60,450 nt of DNA from Nitrospiraceae bacterium (lineage in GTDB: Bacteria; Nitrospirota; Thermodesulfovibrionia; UBA6902), in contig CP070632.1 in NCBI GenBank assembly GCA_020356065.1, forward strand, positions 1,026,423-1,086,872, given 5' to 3'. The translations under genes and the position numbers were made by a program. The notes beneath the pieces were generated by a model. That model was not told the DNA's origin, did no database searches, and saw nothing but the letters and a program-made list of their open reading frames with translations. This document shows, piece by piece, positions 15 through 12,709 of this stretch; position 1 is the stretch's first letter; every line of letters starts with the position of its first letter.

Positions 15-833
15 TTATTGTACCACTCCATGAGTAGCACTTGATGTTAAGTAACTGGGCAATATAGCTTCTGGAACAGGTGGTCTATATCCAAGAGCAC
101 TATGCGGCCGTATATGATTATACTCTCTCCTCCAATTTTCCGTAAGCACCTGAGCTTCATACATCGTCATAAAGATTTCACCATTTATAAGCTCATCTCG
201 CAGCTTTCCATTAAAAGACTCTATATAACCATTTTCCCAAGGGCTGCCAGGCTCGATGTATAACGTCTTTACTTGTAAATCAGTCAGCCACTTCCTTATT
301 GCCTTTGCTGTAAATTCAGGAGCATTGTCAGACCGTATATGCTCAGGAATACCTTTCAGTATGAACAATTGAGCAAGTTCCTGAATTACATCCTCTGCTG
401 TTATGCTGCAGGCTACTTTAATGCAGAGAGATTCACGGCTGTGTTCGTCAATTATATTCAGTATCCTGAAAGCCTTTCCATTATGCGTTCTTGATACCAT
501 CATGTCATAACTCCACACATGATTCTTTCTCATAGGCTTCAACCGTATGCATGAGCCATCATTCAGCCACAACCGTTTTCTTTTAGGCTGCTTACGGGGA
601 ACCTTAAGACCCTCCTGCCTCCATATCCTCTCTACCTTCTTGTGATTCACCTTCCATCCTTCTTGCCACAGTAGTGCCGTGATCCTCCTGTAACCATACC
701 GACCATATTTTGTTGCAAAGTCTATTATTCTTTTCCTCAATAGCACATCTTTCTCACGGGCAATCGGCTTATATCTTTGCGTTGTTCTCCATTGCCCAAG
801 TACTTTACATGCCCGACGTTCTGAAACATTCAT
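15..833 (-). CDS. IS3-family transposase OrfB (DDE integrase core)
   Basis: Catalytic half of the transposase: it cuts and joins the IS ends. The 272-aa stretch from the first ATG carries an HTH_21-like region (residues 30-85, with KYGRYGYRRI), then an rve integrase core. The catalytic triad is visible as D in WSYDMM, D in RSDNAPEF, and E in ENGYIESFNGKLRDE, with the conserved K/R seven residues after the Glu. The reading frame stays open upstream of this ATG to about 893 (GKLLSPARRSKAVEKVKEE...), so the native product is probably an OrfAB fusion made by -1 frameshifting rather than a protein starting at 833. Identification is certain at family level. Confidence 0.95.
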   Translation of the reverse strand: MNVSERRACKVLGQWRTTQRYKPIAREKDVLLRKRIIDFATKYGRYGYRRITALLWQEGWKVNHKKVERIWRQEGLKVPRKQPKRKRLWLNDGSCIRLKPMRKNHVWSYDMMVSRTHNGKAFRILNIIDEHSRESLCIKVACSITAEDVIQELAQLFILKGIPEHIRSDNAPEFTAKAIRKWLTDLQVKTLYIEPGSPWENGYIESFNGKLRDELINGEIFMTMYEAQVLTENWRREYNHIRPHSALGYRPPVPEAILPSYLTSSATHGVVQ

Positions 834-877
834 TTCTTCCTTTACTTTCTCTACTGCCTTGCTTCTTCTTGCCGGGC

Positions 878-1156
878 TTAGTAGTTTCCCTTGAGGGCTT
901 CCTCCAATATTGCCTTGTCCAGATTTAAATCAGCTACCAGCTTTTTCAATCTGCTATTCTCTTTCTCTAGGTCCTTCAGACGCTTTGCCTGCTCTATCTG
1001 CATTCCGCCGTACTCTTTTCTCCAACGATAATACGTAACATCACTGACTCCCAGTTTGCGACAGATATCATCTACTTTGTGTCCCTGGCTCGAGAGCACA
1101 TCAGCTTGTCGCAATTTGCTTATGATTTGCTCAGGTTTGTACCCTTTTTTTCTCAT
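878..1156 (-). CDS. IS3-family transposase OrfA (helix-turn-helix)
   Basis: DNA-binding half of the transposase, 92 aa. Residues 1-55 form the HTH_Tnp_1 domain (EQIISKLRQADV, then DDICRKLGVSDVTYYRWRK) that recognises the IS ends. Residues 57-85 are a leucine-rich coiled coil (RLKDLEKENSRLKKLVADL) typical of OrfA multimerisation. The stop codon lies inside the overlap with the open extension of OrfB. A GGGAAAC heptamer three nucleotides before the stop is a good site for the -1 shift that makes the OrfAB transposase. Confidence 0.95.
   Translation of the reverse strand: MRKKGYKPEQIISKLRQADVLSSQGHKVDDICRKLGVSDVTYYRWRKEYGGMQIEQAKRLKDLEKENSRLKKLVADLNLDKAILEEALKGNY
884..890 (-). promoter_or_regulatory. 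-1 ribosomal frameshift heptamer (G GGA AAC) in IS orfA/orfB overlap
   Basis: On the minus strand orfA ends AAG GGA AAC TAC TAA. The heptamer G_GGA_AAC fits the canonical X_XXY_YYZ slippery form in the orfA frame. Moving back one base puts the ribosome into the frame reading GGG AAA CTA CTA AGC, which runs open into orfB. IS3 elements are known to make their transposase by -1 frameshifting. The site is seen directly; its use is inferred. Confidence 0.7.
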
Positions 1157-2580: not shown

Positions 2581-4338
2581 CTAAATCCCGAAGACTGCTA
2601 TCTGATTGTTATGAACAGACTCTGAGATATACCATATGTACTGAAAATTACATATAACAACTACGGGTGTATTATCAGAATCATTTACGATGTTACCATC
2701 CTGGTCAATTGACATAAGCAGGTCCTGTGGTTTTAATAATGATCCTTCATAACCTGCTTTTTTGAGCTTGTTTTTTTTTCTCTCCACCAACGCCTGACAT
2801 TGCCCGGCATCAATGAGTCCTTTGGTCAGAGCGTCTGCCAAATCGACGCGTTCATACAGCTGACCGGTCTGACGGGCAACCCAGTAGTCCGGGCCATTAT
2901 AATATCCTCTGATTGTTATATAGTTACGGTTTTTCATCAGTACAGGGCTCCCATCAGGGTTGAGAATATTTTTATGAGATTCATAGCGTCTGACATCCCT
3001 GGATTTTTCGATTTTGCAGCTTCCTGTCATATATATTGCTCTTACATAAGCGCAGAGGATGTTCCTGCTTGTTAAATCATGAGCAATAGCAAATTCTTCA
3101 AAAGGGCTGTTTATGCCATATTTCTTTATGAGAGGATCATAATCAGCATCAGCTTTACGTGGCATCTCCCCAACACAGGATGTTTCCCATGCGAGACGAA
3201 CATTGTCTTTTGTTATTGTATAATAAATCTCTCTGCTGCCGGGTAATCTTAACGTATGAGTTTTTCTCCATCGTTCAGGAAGGAAATAGTCAAACAGATG
3301 CGCATTGTTTCCGACAACCCACAGGTTCCCTCCCGTGCTTTCTGCATGGCCAAATATGTATGGCACACCAAGTATTTTTACGCTGCTTAGATGCGAAGGT
3401 ACCGGGGTTGGGGTATAACGGTTTATCTGGTTATCAAGGTATGAATGTCTGCGGGAATCCTTGACTTCCTGTTCATGATCCGGGGTGCGGAGTAATAATT
3501 CATAGTCTATAATTGAATATTTGTCCATTTCAATAAGATGATACAGGTACGTAATTTGTTCTTTTGAGGTCCCTGAACCAGCGCATGATCCTAATTTCAT
3601 AATATGCTCTGCTTCATCAGTGGATATAATGATATGGTCAGGTTTTGTGTCTGCAACCAGGTACCCTTTTTTTGACATATCAGATACAACCATCTGATCA
3701 AGAGTAACAAGATGATGTTTCCGTTCATCAGTATCGACGGCTATAAATTCAAATATTTCAGGAAGGTTATATCCCTCTATCCACCGGTAAACGAGCTTGT
3801 ATTGTTTTAGAATATCGAGGTCTATTCCAGGGTGACGCATACGGATTTTATTGATTTTTGATCGGGACCGCCCACTTTGCCAGAGCTGCATCTTTTCCGG
3901 CGGTACGTATATCGCCATGGGGAGCTGTGTTTTAATTTTCTTATGTTTCGGACCGTATTTACCCTCCCGCATTTCTTCAACCAGCGAGAACTCTTCCCAC
4001 GGGCTGTTGAACTCTGCATTGCAGAACTCCTCCAGAGTGTGTGTATCGAGAGGGACATCTTCTCCAACACGGCAGTTTTTGACAACAAAATCAAGGCTTA
4101 TTCCATCTACCTCTTTTGTAGGGACCTTATAGACCGAGCCTGTACCCTTTAAAGGGATTTTATAATTATTGAACCACCGCTTTTCGAACCAGTTTTCAAT
4201 CGAGAGGTGTTTCCTGAATTTCTGGGCATATCTTGTCAGATATAGATCGCCGTCGTCATCTGTCTTCAGGTGTTCAAACACAACACCCAGTACATTAATT
4301 AATGTATTGCCATGTATCCCATACCCGGTGATGTTCAT
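2581..4338 (-). CDS. Predicted kinase-pseudokinase tandem protein (uncharacterised)
   Basis: A 585-aa protein with no family I can name, but its layout reads as two protein-kinase-like modules. Module 1 has a glycine loop GTGSVYKV (65-72), a candidate ATP-binding lysine in FVVK (K87), a Glu-rich alphaC segment EEFSLVEEM (115-123), a hinge-like YKLVYRWIEGYNL (180-192), a catalytic loop DTKPDHIII (D230, K232, H235) and a metal-binding IIDYE (D278), which resembles aminoglycoside-kinase-type IDFE. Module 2 (about 355-585) repeats the pattern: INSPFEEFAIAHDL matches FNSPWEEFSLVEEM, and KAGYEGSLLKPQDLLM matches KKGYLVADTKPDHIII. In module 2 the catalytic Asp is Leu, the DFG-type Asp is Asn (N564) and the lysine is missing, so it should be inactive. 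No signal peptide or membrane segment is seen. Kinase assignment is inference from motif order. Confidence 0.55.
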   Translation of the reverse strand: MNITGYGIHGNTLINVLGVVFEHLKTDDDGDLYLTRYAQKFRKHLSIENWFEKRWFNNYKIPLKGTGSVYKVPTKEVDGISLDFVVKNCRVGEDVPLDTHTLEEFCNAEFNSPWEEFSLVEEMREGKYGPKHKKIKTQLPMAIYVPPEKMQLWQSGRSRSKINKIRMRHPGIDLDILKQYKLVYRWIEGYNLPEIFEFIAVDTDERKHHLVTLDQMVVSDMSKKGYLVADTKPDHIIISTDEAEHIMKLGSCAGSGTSKEQITYLYHLIEMDKYSIIDYELLLRTPDHEQEVKDSRRHSYLDNQINRYTPTPVPSHLSSVKILGVPYIFGHAESTGGNLWVVGNNAHLFDYFLPERWRKTHTLRLPGSREIYYTITKDNVRLAWETSCVGEMPRKADADYDPLIKKYGINSPFEEFAIAHDLTSRNILCAYVRAIYMTGSCKIEKSRDVRRYESHKNILNPDGSPVLMKNRNYITIRGYYNGPDYWVARQTGQLYERVDLADALTKGLIDAGQCQALVERKKNKLKKAGYEGSLLKPQDLLMSIDQDGNIVNDSDNTPVVVICNFQYIWYISESVHNNQIAVFGI

Positions 4339-4738: not shown

Positions 4739-5101
4739 ATGATGAAGGACGTAGAAAAGCTGTTTGGCACTGCCGTTAATGAAATCGAACGCATGTTAAA
4801 CACCAAGACGGTTGTCGGTGATCCCATCACGATAGAAGGCAATACGCTTATTCCCCTGATAAGTGTCGGCTTTGGCTTTGGGGTTGGCGGCGGTGAAGGC
4901 TCAGACCCGGGCAAGGGTGCCGGTACCGGCGGCGGCACCGGTGGTGGTGGCGGCGTTAAACCTGTTGCACTGGTTGTCATCAACAAGGACGGCGTGCGCA
5001 TTGAACCCATTAAAGGGGGTACGACCTCGGTACTGGAAAAAGTAGTAGAAACAGTCGGCAAGGCAACAGCTGGCAAATCAGGAAGCAAAAAAGCGGATTA
5101 A
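4739..5101 (+). CDS. GerW/YtfJ-family protein
   Basis: A 120-aa protein of the GerW (YtfJ) family. Residues 1-40 (VEKLFGTAVNEIERML, then VVGDPI) are the family N-terminus. Residues 41-60 hold the conserved LIPLISVGFGFGVGGGEG, followed by a glycine-rich linker (about 60-78) and the core VKPVALVVINKDGVRIEPI. In Bacillus the homologue sits at the forespore membrane and is needed for germination, but family members also occur in non-sporulating bacteria, where the role is unknown. A strong ribosome site (AAGGAGGCG) precedes the ATG. Three base pairs separate it from the DUF2953 gene, and this pair is also adjacent in Bacillus (ytfJ-ytfI). G+C is markedly higher than in the flanks, suggesting transfer. 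Confidence 0.9.
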   Translation: MMKDVEKLFGTAVNEIERMLNTKTVVGDPITIEGNTLIPLISVGFGFGVGGGEGSDPGKGAGTGGGTGGGGGVKPVALVVINKDGVRIEPIKGGTTSVLEKVVETVGKATAGKSGSKKAD

Positions 5102-5104
5102 CCG

Positions 5105-5707
5105 GTGAGTTTCGTATTGCTCACTATTGCGATCCTGCTGGCGCTATTGCTCATATTACTGGCCGTGCCAGTCACGGTGGCATTCAGGGTCGACCGGATC
5201 ACAGAGATCACGGGGCACCTGAATTTTCACTGGCTCTATGGGCTGGTGCGATTTCGGATCGGCATTCCGGGCACTGCCAAAGCTGGACCACATCGCAAAC
5301 ATAAGCCCTCGAAAAAAAACGGGAAACTCAGGTCTGGCCCTCATGCGCATGGTGTTTTTGCACTGCTAAGACAGTCGGCATTCCGCCGGCGCAGCATTCG
5401 ATTTATCAAAGATGTGTTACGCGCAACCCATGCGCACGATCTTTATTTTCGTTTACGTATCGGGCTGGGTGATCCTGCTGACACAGGTCGACTGTGGGCG
5501 CTCCTTGGCCCTGTTGCAGGCTTCGCTGCAGATCTTCACAGCGCAGAGGTTAGCATTGAACCGGAATTTATGGACCCTGTGCTGGAGGTCGAGAGTCATG
5601 GTGAGTTCCGCCTCATACCACTTCATTTCATCGCCCTGGCCACAGCATTTGTAGTATCACCGGAGGCCCTGTGTGCGTGGCGCACCCTGCGCCGGAGAGC
5701 TGCATAA
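5105..5707 (+). CDS. DUF2953-domain protein (YtfI-like)
   Basis: A 200-aa protein starting with GTG three bases after the GerW stop. Residues 3-27 form one hydrophobic membrane segment (LLTIAILLALLLILLAVPVTVAF). A basic linker (about 57-78) follows, then the DUF2953 region with FRLRIGLGDPADTG and VSIEPEFMDPVLEVESHGEFRLIP. Its function is unknown. The tight linkage GerW-DUF2953 is conserved across distant phyla, which implies a joint role at the membrane. The last base of its TAA is the first base of the next ATG, so translation is probably coupled. G+C is near 57% in the part counted. Confidence 0.85.
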   Translation: MSFVLLTIAILLALLLILLAVPVTVAFRVDRITEITGHLNFHWLYGLVRFRIGIPGTAKAGPHRKHKPSKKNGKLRSGPHAHGVFALLRQSAFRRRSIRFIKDVLRATHAHDLYFRLRIGLGDPADTGRLWALLGPVAGFAADLHSAEVSIEPEFMDPVLEVESHGEFRLIPLHFIALATAFVVSPEALCAWRTLRRRAA

Positions 5708-11062: not shown

Positions 11063-12709
11063 TTATTCCTGGTTTATATTCTTTCCCAATTCCATATACT
11101 TGAGGATTTCAACTCCGGCTCTGTCATAGTAAACGCTTGTTGATGGTATGTTATCAAGAGTCGATATTGCTTCGATAAATTTACCTTTATCAGCTTTATC
11201 GTATGCCTCCTGCATTATCATCTGATATCCCAGCTCTGTCTCTGCCTTGTTTTTCAGCAGCTCTGCTTCATAATTATCCGGATCAACGGACAATACGTTG
11301 TTTAACTCAGAAATTGCCTCATTCCACGATTCCCTGTTCATAAAATTCTTGCTGTTACTCAGGTATAAATTAATAGAATTTACATTTGCAGTCTTTTTCG
11401 CGTTCACAGCAGCAGGCTGTTGCGGCTCTGAATCTTTTTCATTCCCTGACATAACGAACAGCAACATAAGTGCAAGGAAAAAGAAGGACAGGGAAACAAG
11501 AATGGGTCGGGGAACTGTTTTAATAAATTTTACTATCGCATGTTCTTCGCTTTCTTTTCTCTTTAAGGAAACAACCTCTCCCGGTTCAATAAATCTTAAA
11601 AAAGTATCTCCAATCTGAATTTCCATGCCGCTGGCAAGTATGGCTTCCTTTATTTTTGCTTTTCCTATCAGAACGCCATTTACGCTGTTCAGATCTGTAA
11701 TGGTGATCCAGTCATCTTTATGACGGACAACCTTTGCATGATGTCCACGTGAAACAAGCGGATCCTTAAGTACGATATCATTGTCTTCAGAGCGTCCTAT
11801 TAACAGTTCTTTATTTATGTAAAACTCTTTTCCGGTATCTTCTCCTGAAATTATCACCAGTTTCGGCATTTGAAGGAGGCTTTTCCCTTTGTCCATGTTG
11901 AGAGTGCCGCTTTCGCTCATATCAGCCGGTATGTTAGATTTGATGCTCTTCTGTTCTCTCGTAACTTTATCATGCTGAATGTCAGCCTGCGGCCTGATTT
12001 CCTTCTCTGTCAAAGAGGGTTTCGGTTTTGTGATAACCGTTTTATCAATACCTTCTTCTTCACTGTATTCTTCAAGATAAAATACATTGAGCCCTATTTT
12101 TATTTCATCTCCCGGAGAAATGTTTACTGCCTTAGCGGCCGGAATTTTATTGCCATTCACGAAAACTCCGTTCGTACTGTCCAGATCTTTTATATACACT
12201 TTATTCTGACGCAAAGAAATCTTTGCATGGTTGAGCGATACGCTTGTATCATTGAGCAAAAGAGTGCTCCCTTCACCTCTGCCGATTATGATTGGCTTGC
12301 TCGTAACAGACGTTTCTCCTGATGTTTCCCTGTCTCCTTTTAAAACAAGTTTGAGCTTCGCATCAGTGTGCGATTTATTGATTATCACTGTTCTTTCCGT
12401 GTCTGCGTCATCAGTACTTTCTTCAAGATGCAGTATGTTGAGCCCTATTTTTATTTCATCTCCGAGGACAATATGCTTAGATTTCTCACTTGAAATCCTC
12501 TGACCATTTACGAGGACGCCATTTGTGCTGTCCAGATCCCTGATAAAGACTTTGCCCTGACGCATCGTAATTTTGGCATGGTTGAGAGATATACTCGAGT
12601 CATGAATCAGGAACGTGCTGCCTTCGCCTCTGCCGATTATGATTGGCCTCGTGGTGACAGACGTTTCCATTGATGTACCTTCATCCCCTTTTAGTACAAG
12701 TTTTAACAT
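11063..12709 (-). CDS. Triple FHA-domain protein with membrane anchor and TPR-like tail
   Basis: A 548-aa protein. Three forkhead-associated domains occur in a row: residues 1-75 (IIGRGEGSTFLIHDSSISLNHAKI, DLDSTNGVLVNG), about 115-195 (near-duplicate), and about 275-365 (IGRSEDNDIVLKDPLVSRGHH). Each keeps the GR...S..H...N pattern that binds phosphothreonine. A hydrophobic segment (LVSLSFFFLALMLLFVMSG, about 400-420) is followed by a helical TPR-like region (EAISELNNVLSVDPDNYEAELL). The FHA part is N-terminal and likely cytoplasmic, the TPR part on the other side. The first two FHA units are close copies, so they arose by recent duplication. A single-FHA gene lies 50 bp upstream on the same strand. 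Such proteins read out Ser/Thr kinase signals; the partner kinase is not adjacent. Confidence 0.88.
   Translation of the reverse strand: MLKLVLKGDEGTSMETSVTTRPIIIGRGEGSTFLIHDSSISLNHAKITMRQGKVFIRDLDSTNGVLVNGQRISSEKSKHIVLGDEIKIGLNILHLEESTDDADTERTVIINKSHTDAKLKLVLKGDRETSGETSVTSKPIIIGRGEGSTLLLNDTSVSLNHAKISLRQNKVYIKDLDSTNGVFVNGNKIPAAKAVNISPGDEIKIGLNVFYLEEYSEEEGIDKTVITKPKPSLTEKEIRPQADIQHDKVTREQKSIKSNIPADMSESGTLNMDKGKSLLQMPKLVIISGEDTGKEFYINKELLIGRSEDNDIVLKDPLVSRGHHAKVVRHKDDWITITDLNSVNGVLIGKAKIKEAILASGMEIQIGDTFLRFIEPGEVVSLKRKESEEHAIVKFIKTVPRPILVSLSFFFLALMLLFVMSGNEKDSEPQQPAAVNAKKTANVNSINLYLSNSKNFMNRESWNEAISELNNVLSVDPDNYEAELLKNKAETELGYQMIMQEAYDKADKGKFIEAISTLDNIPSTSVYYDRAGVEILKYMELGKNINQE

Follow-up and report, generated by a model that had tools for sequence, protein, structure and literature searches.

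PEPCK controls entry into gluconeogenesis. Dedicated regulatory kinases of a single central-carbon enzyme are exemplified by AceK and by PDRP, the PPDK/PEP-synthase regulatory protein, both of which also remove the phosphate, and the AceK gene lies beside its pathway genes in aceBAK. Pyruvate phosphate dikinase/PPS and plant PEP carboxylase have regulatory kinases of their own, and GTP-PEPCKs are under no allosteric control, according to a review (PMC8100219). Plant PEPCK, which is of the ATP type, is phosphorylated, and the responsible kinases are unsettled (PMC10441589). Among bacterial pseudokinases, the families ActPs1-3, GLW, CP1, DYD and DLHK have been described, and those of the DYD family carry Arg for the strand-3 Lys and lack the helix-C Glu (PMC12599244).

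Here we describe a bacterial protein composed of a kinase-like half and a degenerate copy of that half, encoded in a Nitrospiraceae genome within a 60,450-nucleotide stretch of DNA, the whole of which is called the window below. A search of the open literature turned up no account of a bacterial kinase dedicated to PEPCK, nor any description of the tandem family or of a PEPCK-linked pseudokinase; a mention is possible in a review from 2020 that covers forty kinase-like families of bacteria (cited in PMC10870513).

Results

A tandem gene family in three phyla

The open reading frame at 2581-4338 (minus strand) encodes a tandem protein of 585 residues, whose features are collected in Table 1. 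As a single query, the window protein has no match in Pfam, NCBIfam or PDB sequences, and no Pfam or NCBIfam model exists for the family when 29 members are scanned, so that the family is as unrecognised as a preliminary description of this DNA had supposed. The protein kinase model PF00069 (Pkinase) does not match the window protein and reaches 2 of 29 homologues only at E 0.067 or worse. Other Pfam matches of the homologues (Csm1, DUF2846, Phage_XkdX) are weak and scattered, and were put down to chance.

Table 1 Features of the tandem gene in the window; residue counts leave gaps out.
Feature	Position	Strand	Evidence
Tandem kinase-pseudokinase gene	2581..4338	-	585 codons ATG to stop, stop codon included
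Half 1, residues 1-309, catalytic residues kept	3412..4338	-	78-homologue counts, AlphaFold, Foldseek
Glycine loop GTGSVYKV, residues 65-72	4123..4146	-	G65 77/78
ATP-binding lysine K87 in VVK (85-87)	4078..4080	-	K 77/78, R in one
Helix-C motif PWEEFSLVEEMRE, residues 113-125	3964..4002	-	E116 77/77; helix in model
Family-specific insert PPEKMQLWQSGRSRSKINKIRMRHPGIDLDIL, residues 146-177, between strands 4 and 5	3808..3903	-	R157 77/77, W153 73/77
Catalytic loop DTKPDHIII, residues 230-238	3625..3651	-	D230, K232, H235 each 77/77
Metal-binding DYE, residues 278-280, DFG equivalent	3499..3507	-	D278, E280 78/78
Half 2, residues 310-585, pseudokinase copy	2584..3411	-	Profile homology to half 1; one clade, 100/100
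Helix-C-like motif INSPFEEFAIAHDLTS, residues 409-424, copy of half-1 motif	3067..3114	-	S411 to E414 in 75/75 tandem sequences
Degenerate catalytic loop YEGSLLKPQDLL, residues 530-541	2716..2751	-	Leu535 for catalytic Asp, 72/74
Degenerate DFG equivalent ICNFQ, residues 562-566	2641..2655	-	Asn564 for metal-binding Asp, 73/74

A genome search detected homologues in 30 of the 61 related genomes examined, and a contig scan adds others from Nitrospirota, Fibrobacterota (Fibrobacteres, Chitinispirillaceae) and Planctomycetota, the phyla that were sampled. The sample of 296 Nitrospirota genomes gave 41 matches, one of them weak and to an ordinary kinase; those of Fibrobacterota and Planctomycetota added 15 and 9, again including weak ones. 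The weak match in genome G071 (E 3e-5) was taken to be an ordinary kinase and was not counted as a family member, and the similar Planctomycetota matches at positions 165-263, most of them in frames of 700-1300 aa, were likewise read as ordinary kinases and left uncounted. Some homologues have in-frame stops, which could be read as pseudogenes; the stops lie at the match edges, and the frames when re-read are intact at 562-622 aa. An alignment of 29 sequences runs over the full length at 44-67% identity, and a larger one of 78 distinct homologues with the window protein underlies the residue counts.

Two variations in gene form were seen. A genome of the Fibrobacterota group (G391) carries two complete tandem genes side by side (L147, 7663-9405 and 9537-11252), and three Planctomycetota relatives are of a single domain, equivalent to half 1 (L142 8066-8938, L143 8241-9227, L144 8109-9359), one of them with Arg at the Lys87 equivalent; their genomes also carry GTP-PEPCK.

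In the window itself, positions 4739-5707 hold a GerW/YtfJ-type sporulation-family gene (TIGR02874, E 5e-17, below cut-off) followed by a membrane protein gene; spore formation is, to our knowledge, not reported from this lineage. Further along, a 548-aa protein (11063-12709) seems to combine three FHA-type repeats with a transmembrane segment and, at its end, tetratricopeptide-like sequence.

Half 1 keeps the kinase residues on a divergent fold

The ordered motifs listed in the preliminary description were recovered in half 1, namely GTGSVYKV (65-72), VVK (85-87), YRWIEGYNL (184-192), DTKPDHIII (230-238) and IIDYE (276-280). The four residues that mark the kinase-like superfamily, the strand-3 Lys, helix-C Glu, catalytic Asp and metal-binding Asp, are all present (K87, E116, D230, D278), and across the 78 homologues the core kinase residues are all kept except the Asn of the catalytic loop. 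That Asn normally binds the second metal in kinases. Its place is taken by His235 in 77/77 sequences, a replacement already remarked on from the window protein, making the loop pattern D-x-K-P-x-H; the Asn that ends the catalytic loop in the PF00069 family is thus absent, and the D-x-K-P part resembles Ser/Thr kinases. Because the metal-binding Asn is His in every sequence, ordinary phosphotransfer by half 1 is not assured. The family-specific insert has G156, R157 and D175 invariant in a 43-sequence alignment and forms helices at 152-155 and 159-168 in the AlphaFold model.

The AlphaFold model of half 1, built with 71 sequences, has a pLDDT of 86.2 and a pTM of 0.84. When it was compared with the PDB by Foldseek, the 50 matches listed were all kinase-fold proteins, with probability mostly 0.97-1.00. 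The kinship is distant, because TM-scores among the matches listed are low (0.20-0.40) and the best E is 6.5e-4; the best TM-score among them, 0.40 with an rmsd of 6.5, belongs to WaaP. Similarly, 51 of 52 matches of the half-1 profile to PDB sequences (E up to 10) are protein kinases, the best at E 0.0073. A two-lobe kinase fold is thus found as a distant match; a fold unrelated to kinases, which would have spoken against the preliminary description, did not appear.

In the model, a single helix (286-305) follows D278, and then half 2 starts. Only about 30 residues follow DYE, and therefore the substrate-holding C-lobe helices of typical protein kinases are missing; neither the APE activation segment nor helices F to I, which come after DFG, appear in the model of half 1. 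As modelled, half 1 is a divergent kinase-like fold with a short C-lobe, not an ordinary eukaryotic-type kinase.

Half 2 is a conserved, degenerate copy

That the protein contains an internal repeat is real, and the repeat is longer than was noted by eye. When the halves were compared as single sequences by BLAST, the match was weak (E 0.007). Profile-profile comparison from 29 sequences gives a probability of 98-99% and E 2.9e-13, and hhalign from 43 sequences gives E 1.5e-18 with a score of 131, far above the 40 column-shuffled controls, of which the highest scored 24.5, and above the reversed profile, which scored 13.4. The duplicated unit takes in the first ~60 residues, VLGVVY.H.KTSDGGDLYLT being aligned with IFGVPYIYGHAESTGGHLWVV. 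When the full-length protein was modelled with AlphaFold (pLDDT 78.6, pTM 0.72), one order of strands and helices appeared twice. One chain therefore holds two homologous kinase-like domains, as a tandem should.

Of these, the second lacks both the catalytic and the metal-binding Asp family-wide, Leu and Asn standing in their places as had been read from the window protein (counts in Table 1). It has no glycine loop, and position 385, which corresponds to Lys87, is in most sequences occupied by Glu, Lys or Arg. Helix C, by contrast, retains its Glu, with E414 in 75/75 and E415 in 74/75 sequences. The two halves are equally conserved, the mean majority-residue frequency being 0.72 for half 1 and 0.73 for half 2, which argues that half 2 has a function.

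In a tree of halves, the second halves form one group with support of 100/100 and the relatives with a single domain are interspersed with the first halves, their placement being moderately supported and their branches long. From this topology there was one old duplication, and a few Planctomycetota lineages now carry the presumably active half alone.

GTP-PEPCK accompanies the gene

In most Nitrospirota, the tandem gene lies directly downstream of a GTP-PEPCK gene on the same strand, the neighbour being identified as PEPCK (GTP) by NF003253 at E about 1e-289. At 41 distinct Nitrospirota loci, both genes were recovered no more than about 6 kb apart, and at all 41 PEPCK precedes the kinase gene on a shared strand; the gap is below 210 nt in about 30 of the 41, and two are 8-nt overlaps. 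Across the 296 Nitrospirota genomes, GTP-PEPCK is present in 40/40 kinase carriers versus 8/256 non-carriers (Fisher 7e-42, a value that overstates the number of independent events, as the carriers are related and much of the Nitrospirota linkage is one inherited arrangement). PEPCK_ATP (PF01293) has no match in any of the 40 carriers of this sample. Incidentally, about 50 Nitrospirota genomes encode a protein of ~560 aa with a weak PEPCK_ATP match at E about 1e-9 to 1e-17 (e.g. G004:C15:18144-19274); it is absent from all 40 carriers and possibly represents an unrecognised PEPCK-like family.

The window genome departs from this arrangement. Its PEPCK gene lies about 2 Mb from the kinase gene (G000:C1:3105464), which is nevertheless intact. 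Two adjacent open reading frames near the kinase gene (15-1156, minus strand; 272 aa and 92 aa) have the look of a transposase pair of the IS3 type, and a glyoxalase-like gene lies there too. These neighbours suggest a moved locus, and the IS3-type pair may explain why the kinase gene is unlinked from PEPCK.

Association is not mutual. At least 10 GTP-PEPCK-positive Nitrospirota have no kinase, so PEPCK can work without it. The dependence therefore runs one way, the kinase requiring PEPCK and PEPCK having no need of the kinase. On a PEPCK tree, kinase presence changes at least 8 times on well-supported branches, so that it is not just a matter of belonging to one PEPCK clade. A scan of conserved Ser/Thr residues in PEPCK, carriers versus non-carriers, gave no clear phosphosite tracking kinase presence and one weak candidate, S120, conserved at 98% versus 74%.

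Outside Nitrospirota, GTP-PEPCK was found in 15/15 carriers tested versus 16/40 non-carriers tested from Fibrobacterota and Planctomycetota. Linkage recurs there in various forms. The kinase precedes PEPCK by 74 nt in G337, follows it in G413, and adjoins it head to head in G403, while in G627 a single-domain relative is two genes away from PEPCK. These linkages, of which the three between adjacent genes are from Fibrobacterota, are independent of the Nitrospirota arrangement. The adjoining PEPCK of G413 is of a divergent type, a bacterial-type PEPCK being elsewhere in that genome, and the divergent tandem kinases of G403, G464, G363 and G597 all accompany a divergent PEPCK type, which is probably archaeal-like. 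Co-occurrence and linkage, as expected of the proposed PEPCK regulator, were thus both found, with G019, G028 and G333 as exceptions in which the kinase is present and no PEPCK match was found.

Discussion

We take the protein to belong to a new kinase-like family, marked by its tandem pseudokinase and its metabolic partner. The PEPCK link carries most of the functional information, and a functional tie to PEPCK is very probable. Catalytic activity of half 1 is likely, judged from its residues: K87, E116, D230, K232 and D278 are essentially invariant, and the single-domain relatives keep half 1 only. It is an evenly balanced proposition that the tandem protein is a dedicated GTP-PEPCK regulator, its pseudokinase half controlling an active kinase half. 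That PEPCK itself is the substrate phosphorylated by half 1 falls a little short of an even chance. The whole reading, a new three-phylum kinase-like family whose active half is under its own ancient pseudokinase copy and has the one job of phosphorylating GTP-PEPCK, is put forward tentatively.

On such a reading, half 1 would move phosphate from ATP to a serine or threonine, most likely one in PEPCK itself, and would thereby switch flux at the PEP-oxaloacetate step. Half 2 might dock PEPCK, or sense a nucleotide or metabolite, and would hold half 1 on or off.

The PEPCK link would equally fit a kinase-fold protein that acts on PEPCK without phosphorylating it, be it an allosteric subunit, a folding or metal-loading partner, or an enzyme that transfers AMP or another group. 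The change of the metal-site Asn to His in all sequences and the short C-lobe speak for this, and kinase-like families with other chemistries exist (PMC10870513). SelO and SidJ are kinase-like proteins that transfer AMP or another group. However, a pure binder would not need catalytic residues, whereas K87, E116, D230, K232 and D278 have been retained as a set by nearly all 78 sequences while half 2 has lost key ones, and we consider such a partner unlikely. The short C-lobe would also suit a small-molecule kinase, like those for aminoglycosides, choline or Kdo, that makes a metabolite tied to PEP metabolism, and WaaP, which has the best TM-score (0.40) among the half-1 Foldseek matches listed, is an LPS sugar kinase. 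Yet the D-x-K-P pattern is present, the profile matches are almost without exception to protein kinases of the Ser/Thr kind, and no such small-molecule family was matched in the Pfam or NCBIfam scans, which makes this very improbable.

A protein kinase might instead serve another central-carbon target, PEPCK being only an operon partner and both genes serving gluconeogenic growth. Some unlinked copies do lie beside other sugar-metabolism genes, for example a PfkB-like kinase (G391, G357) or a phosphofructokinase-like gene (G363), neighbours that were named from sequence alone. These sugar-gene neighbours vary, however, whereas PEPCK is in nearly every carrier, over three phyla and in several linked arrangements, so that another target is distinctly unlikely. 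It is hardly credible that both halves are catalytically dead, or that shared descent alone has kept the gene at the side of PEPCK as a passenger. The gene is indeed lost in some relatives and most of the linkage is one inherited arrangement, but the catalytic residues are strongly conserved, the copy in the window genome is intact far from PEPCK, and new linkages occur in Fibrobacterota. A role in phage defence, raised by PADLOC matches to PD-T4-6, was rejected, as these reflect distant kinase kinship, a defence context was not seen, and neither plasmids nor viral contigs gave a match.

If phosphorylation of PEPCK by half 1 is true, the protein would be the first dedicated kinase of GTP-PEPCK, and central metabolism in bacteria would contain a built-in kinase-pseudokinase switch. 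Because a conserved companion accompanies PEPCK across phyla, two purified proteins suffice for a direct test of how the enzyme is regulated. The tandem protein would also be a bacterial case in which a pseudokinase has stayed next to its active counterpart ever since a single ancient duplication, and for which the natural single-domain forms are a built-in control.

Comparison with known systems

Like ActPs1-3, GLW, CP1, DYD and DLHK, half 2 is a bacterial pseudokinase with conserved motif losses (PMC12599244). Neither a tandem nor a carboxykinase is mentioned in the text of that review, and Nitrospirota, Fibrobacterota and Planctomycetota are likewise absent from it. The window protein is not of the DYD type, as half 1 keeps both residues that define it by their loss and half 2 keeps the helix-C Glu, and the DLHK motif pattern described there does not fit the tandem protein. 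The best matches to the phage-defence kinase PD-T4-6 (PADLOC, E 1e-5) and to Bud32 (NCBIfam, 1.8e-4) are weak in sequence and amount to distant kinase kinship.

The bacterial eukaryotic-type Ser/Thr kinases such as PknB and Stk1 (PF00069), which are the top Foldseek and profile matches of half 1, share with it the glycine loop, the VVK Lys, the helix-C Glu, D-x-K-P and the Asp at the DFG position. Unlike them, the tandem protein has His for Asn, DYE for DFG, a short C-lobe, the insert between strands 4 and 5 and a fused inactive second copy, and no Pfam match.

AceK and PDRP resemble the proposed role, each being a dedicated kinase of one central-carbon enzyme; by the Pfam and NCBIfam scans of 29 members, in which their family models gave no match, they are not homologous to the tandem protein. 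In architecture only, the protein resembles the tandem kinase-pseudokinases of plants and animals (WTK1/Yr15, JAK), which likewise join a kinase and a pseudokinase in one polypeptide. Unlike in those, the bacterial halves are copies from one duplication within the family, the kinase comes first, and the context is that of a metabolic enzyme.
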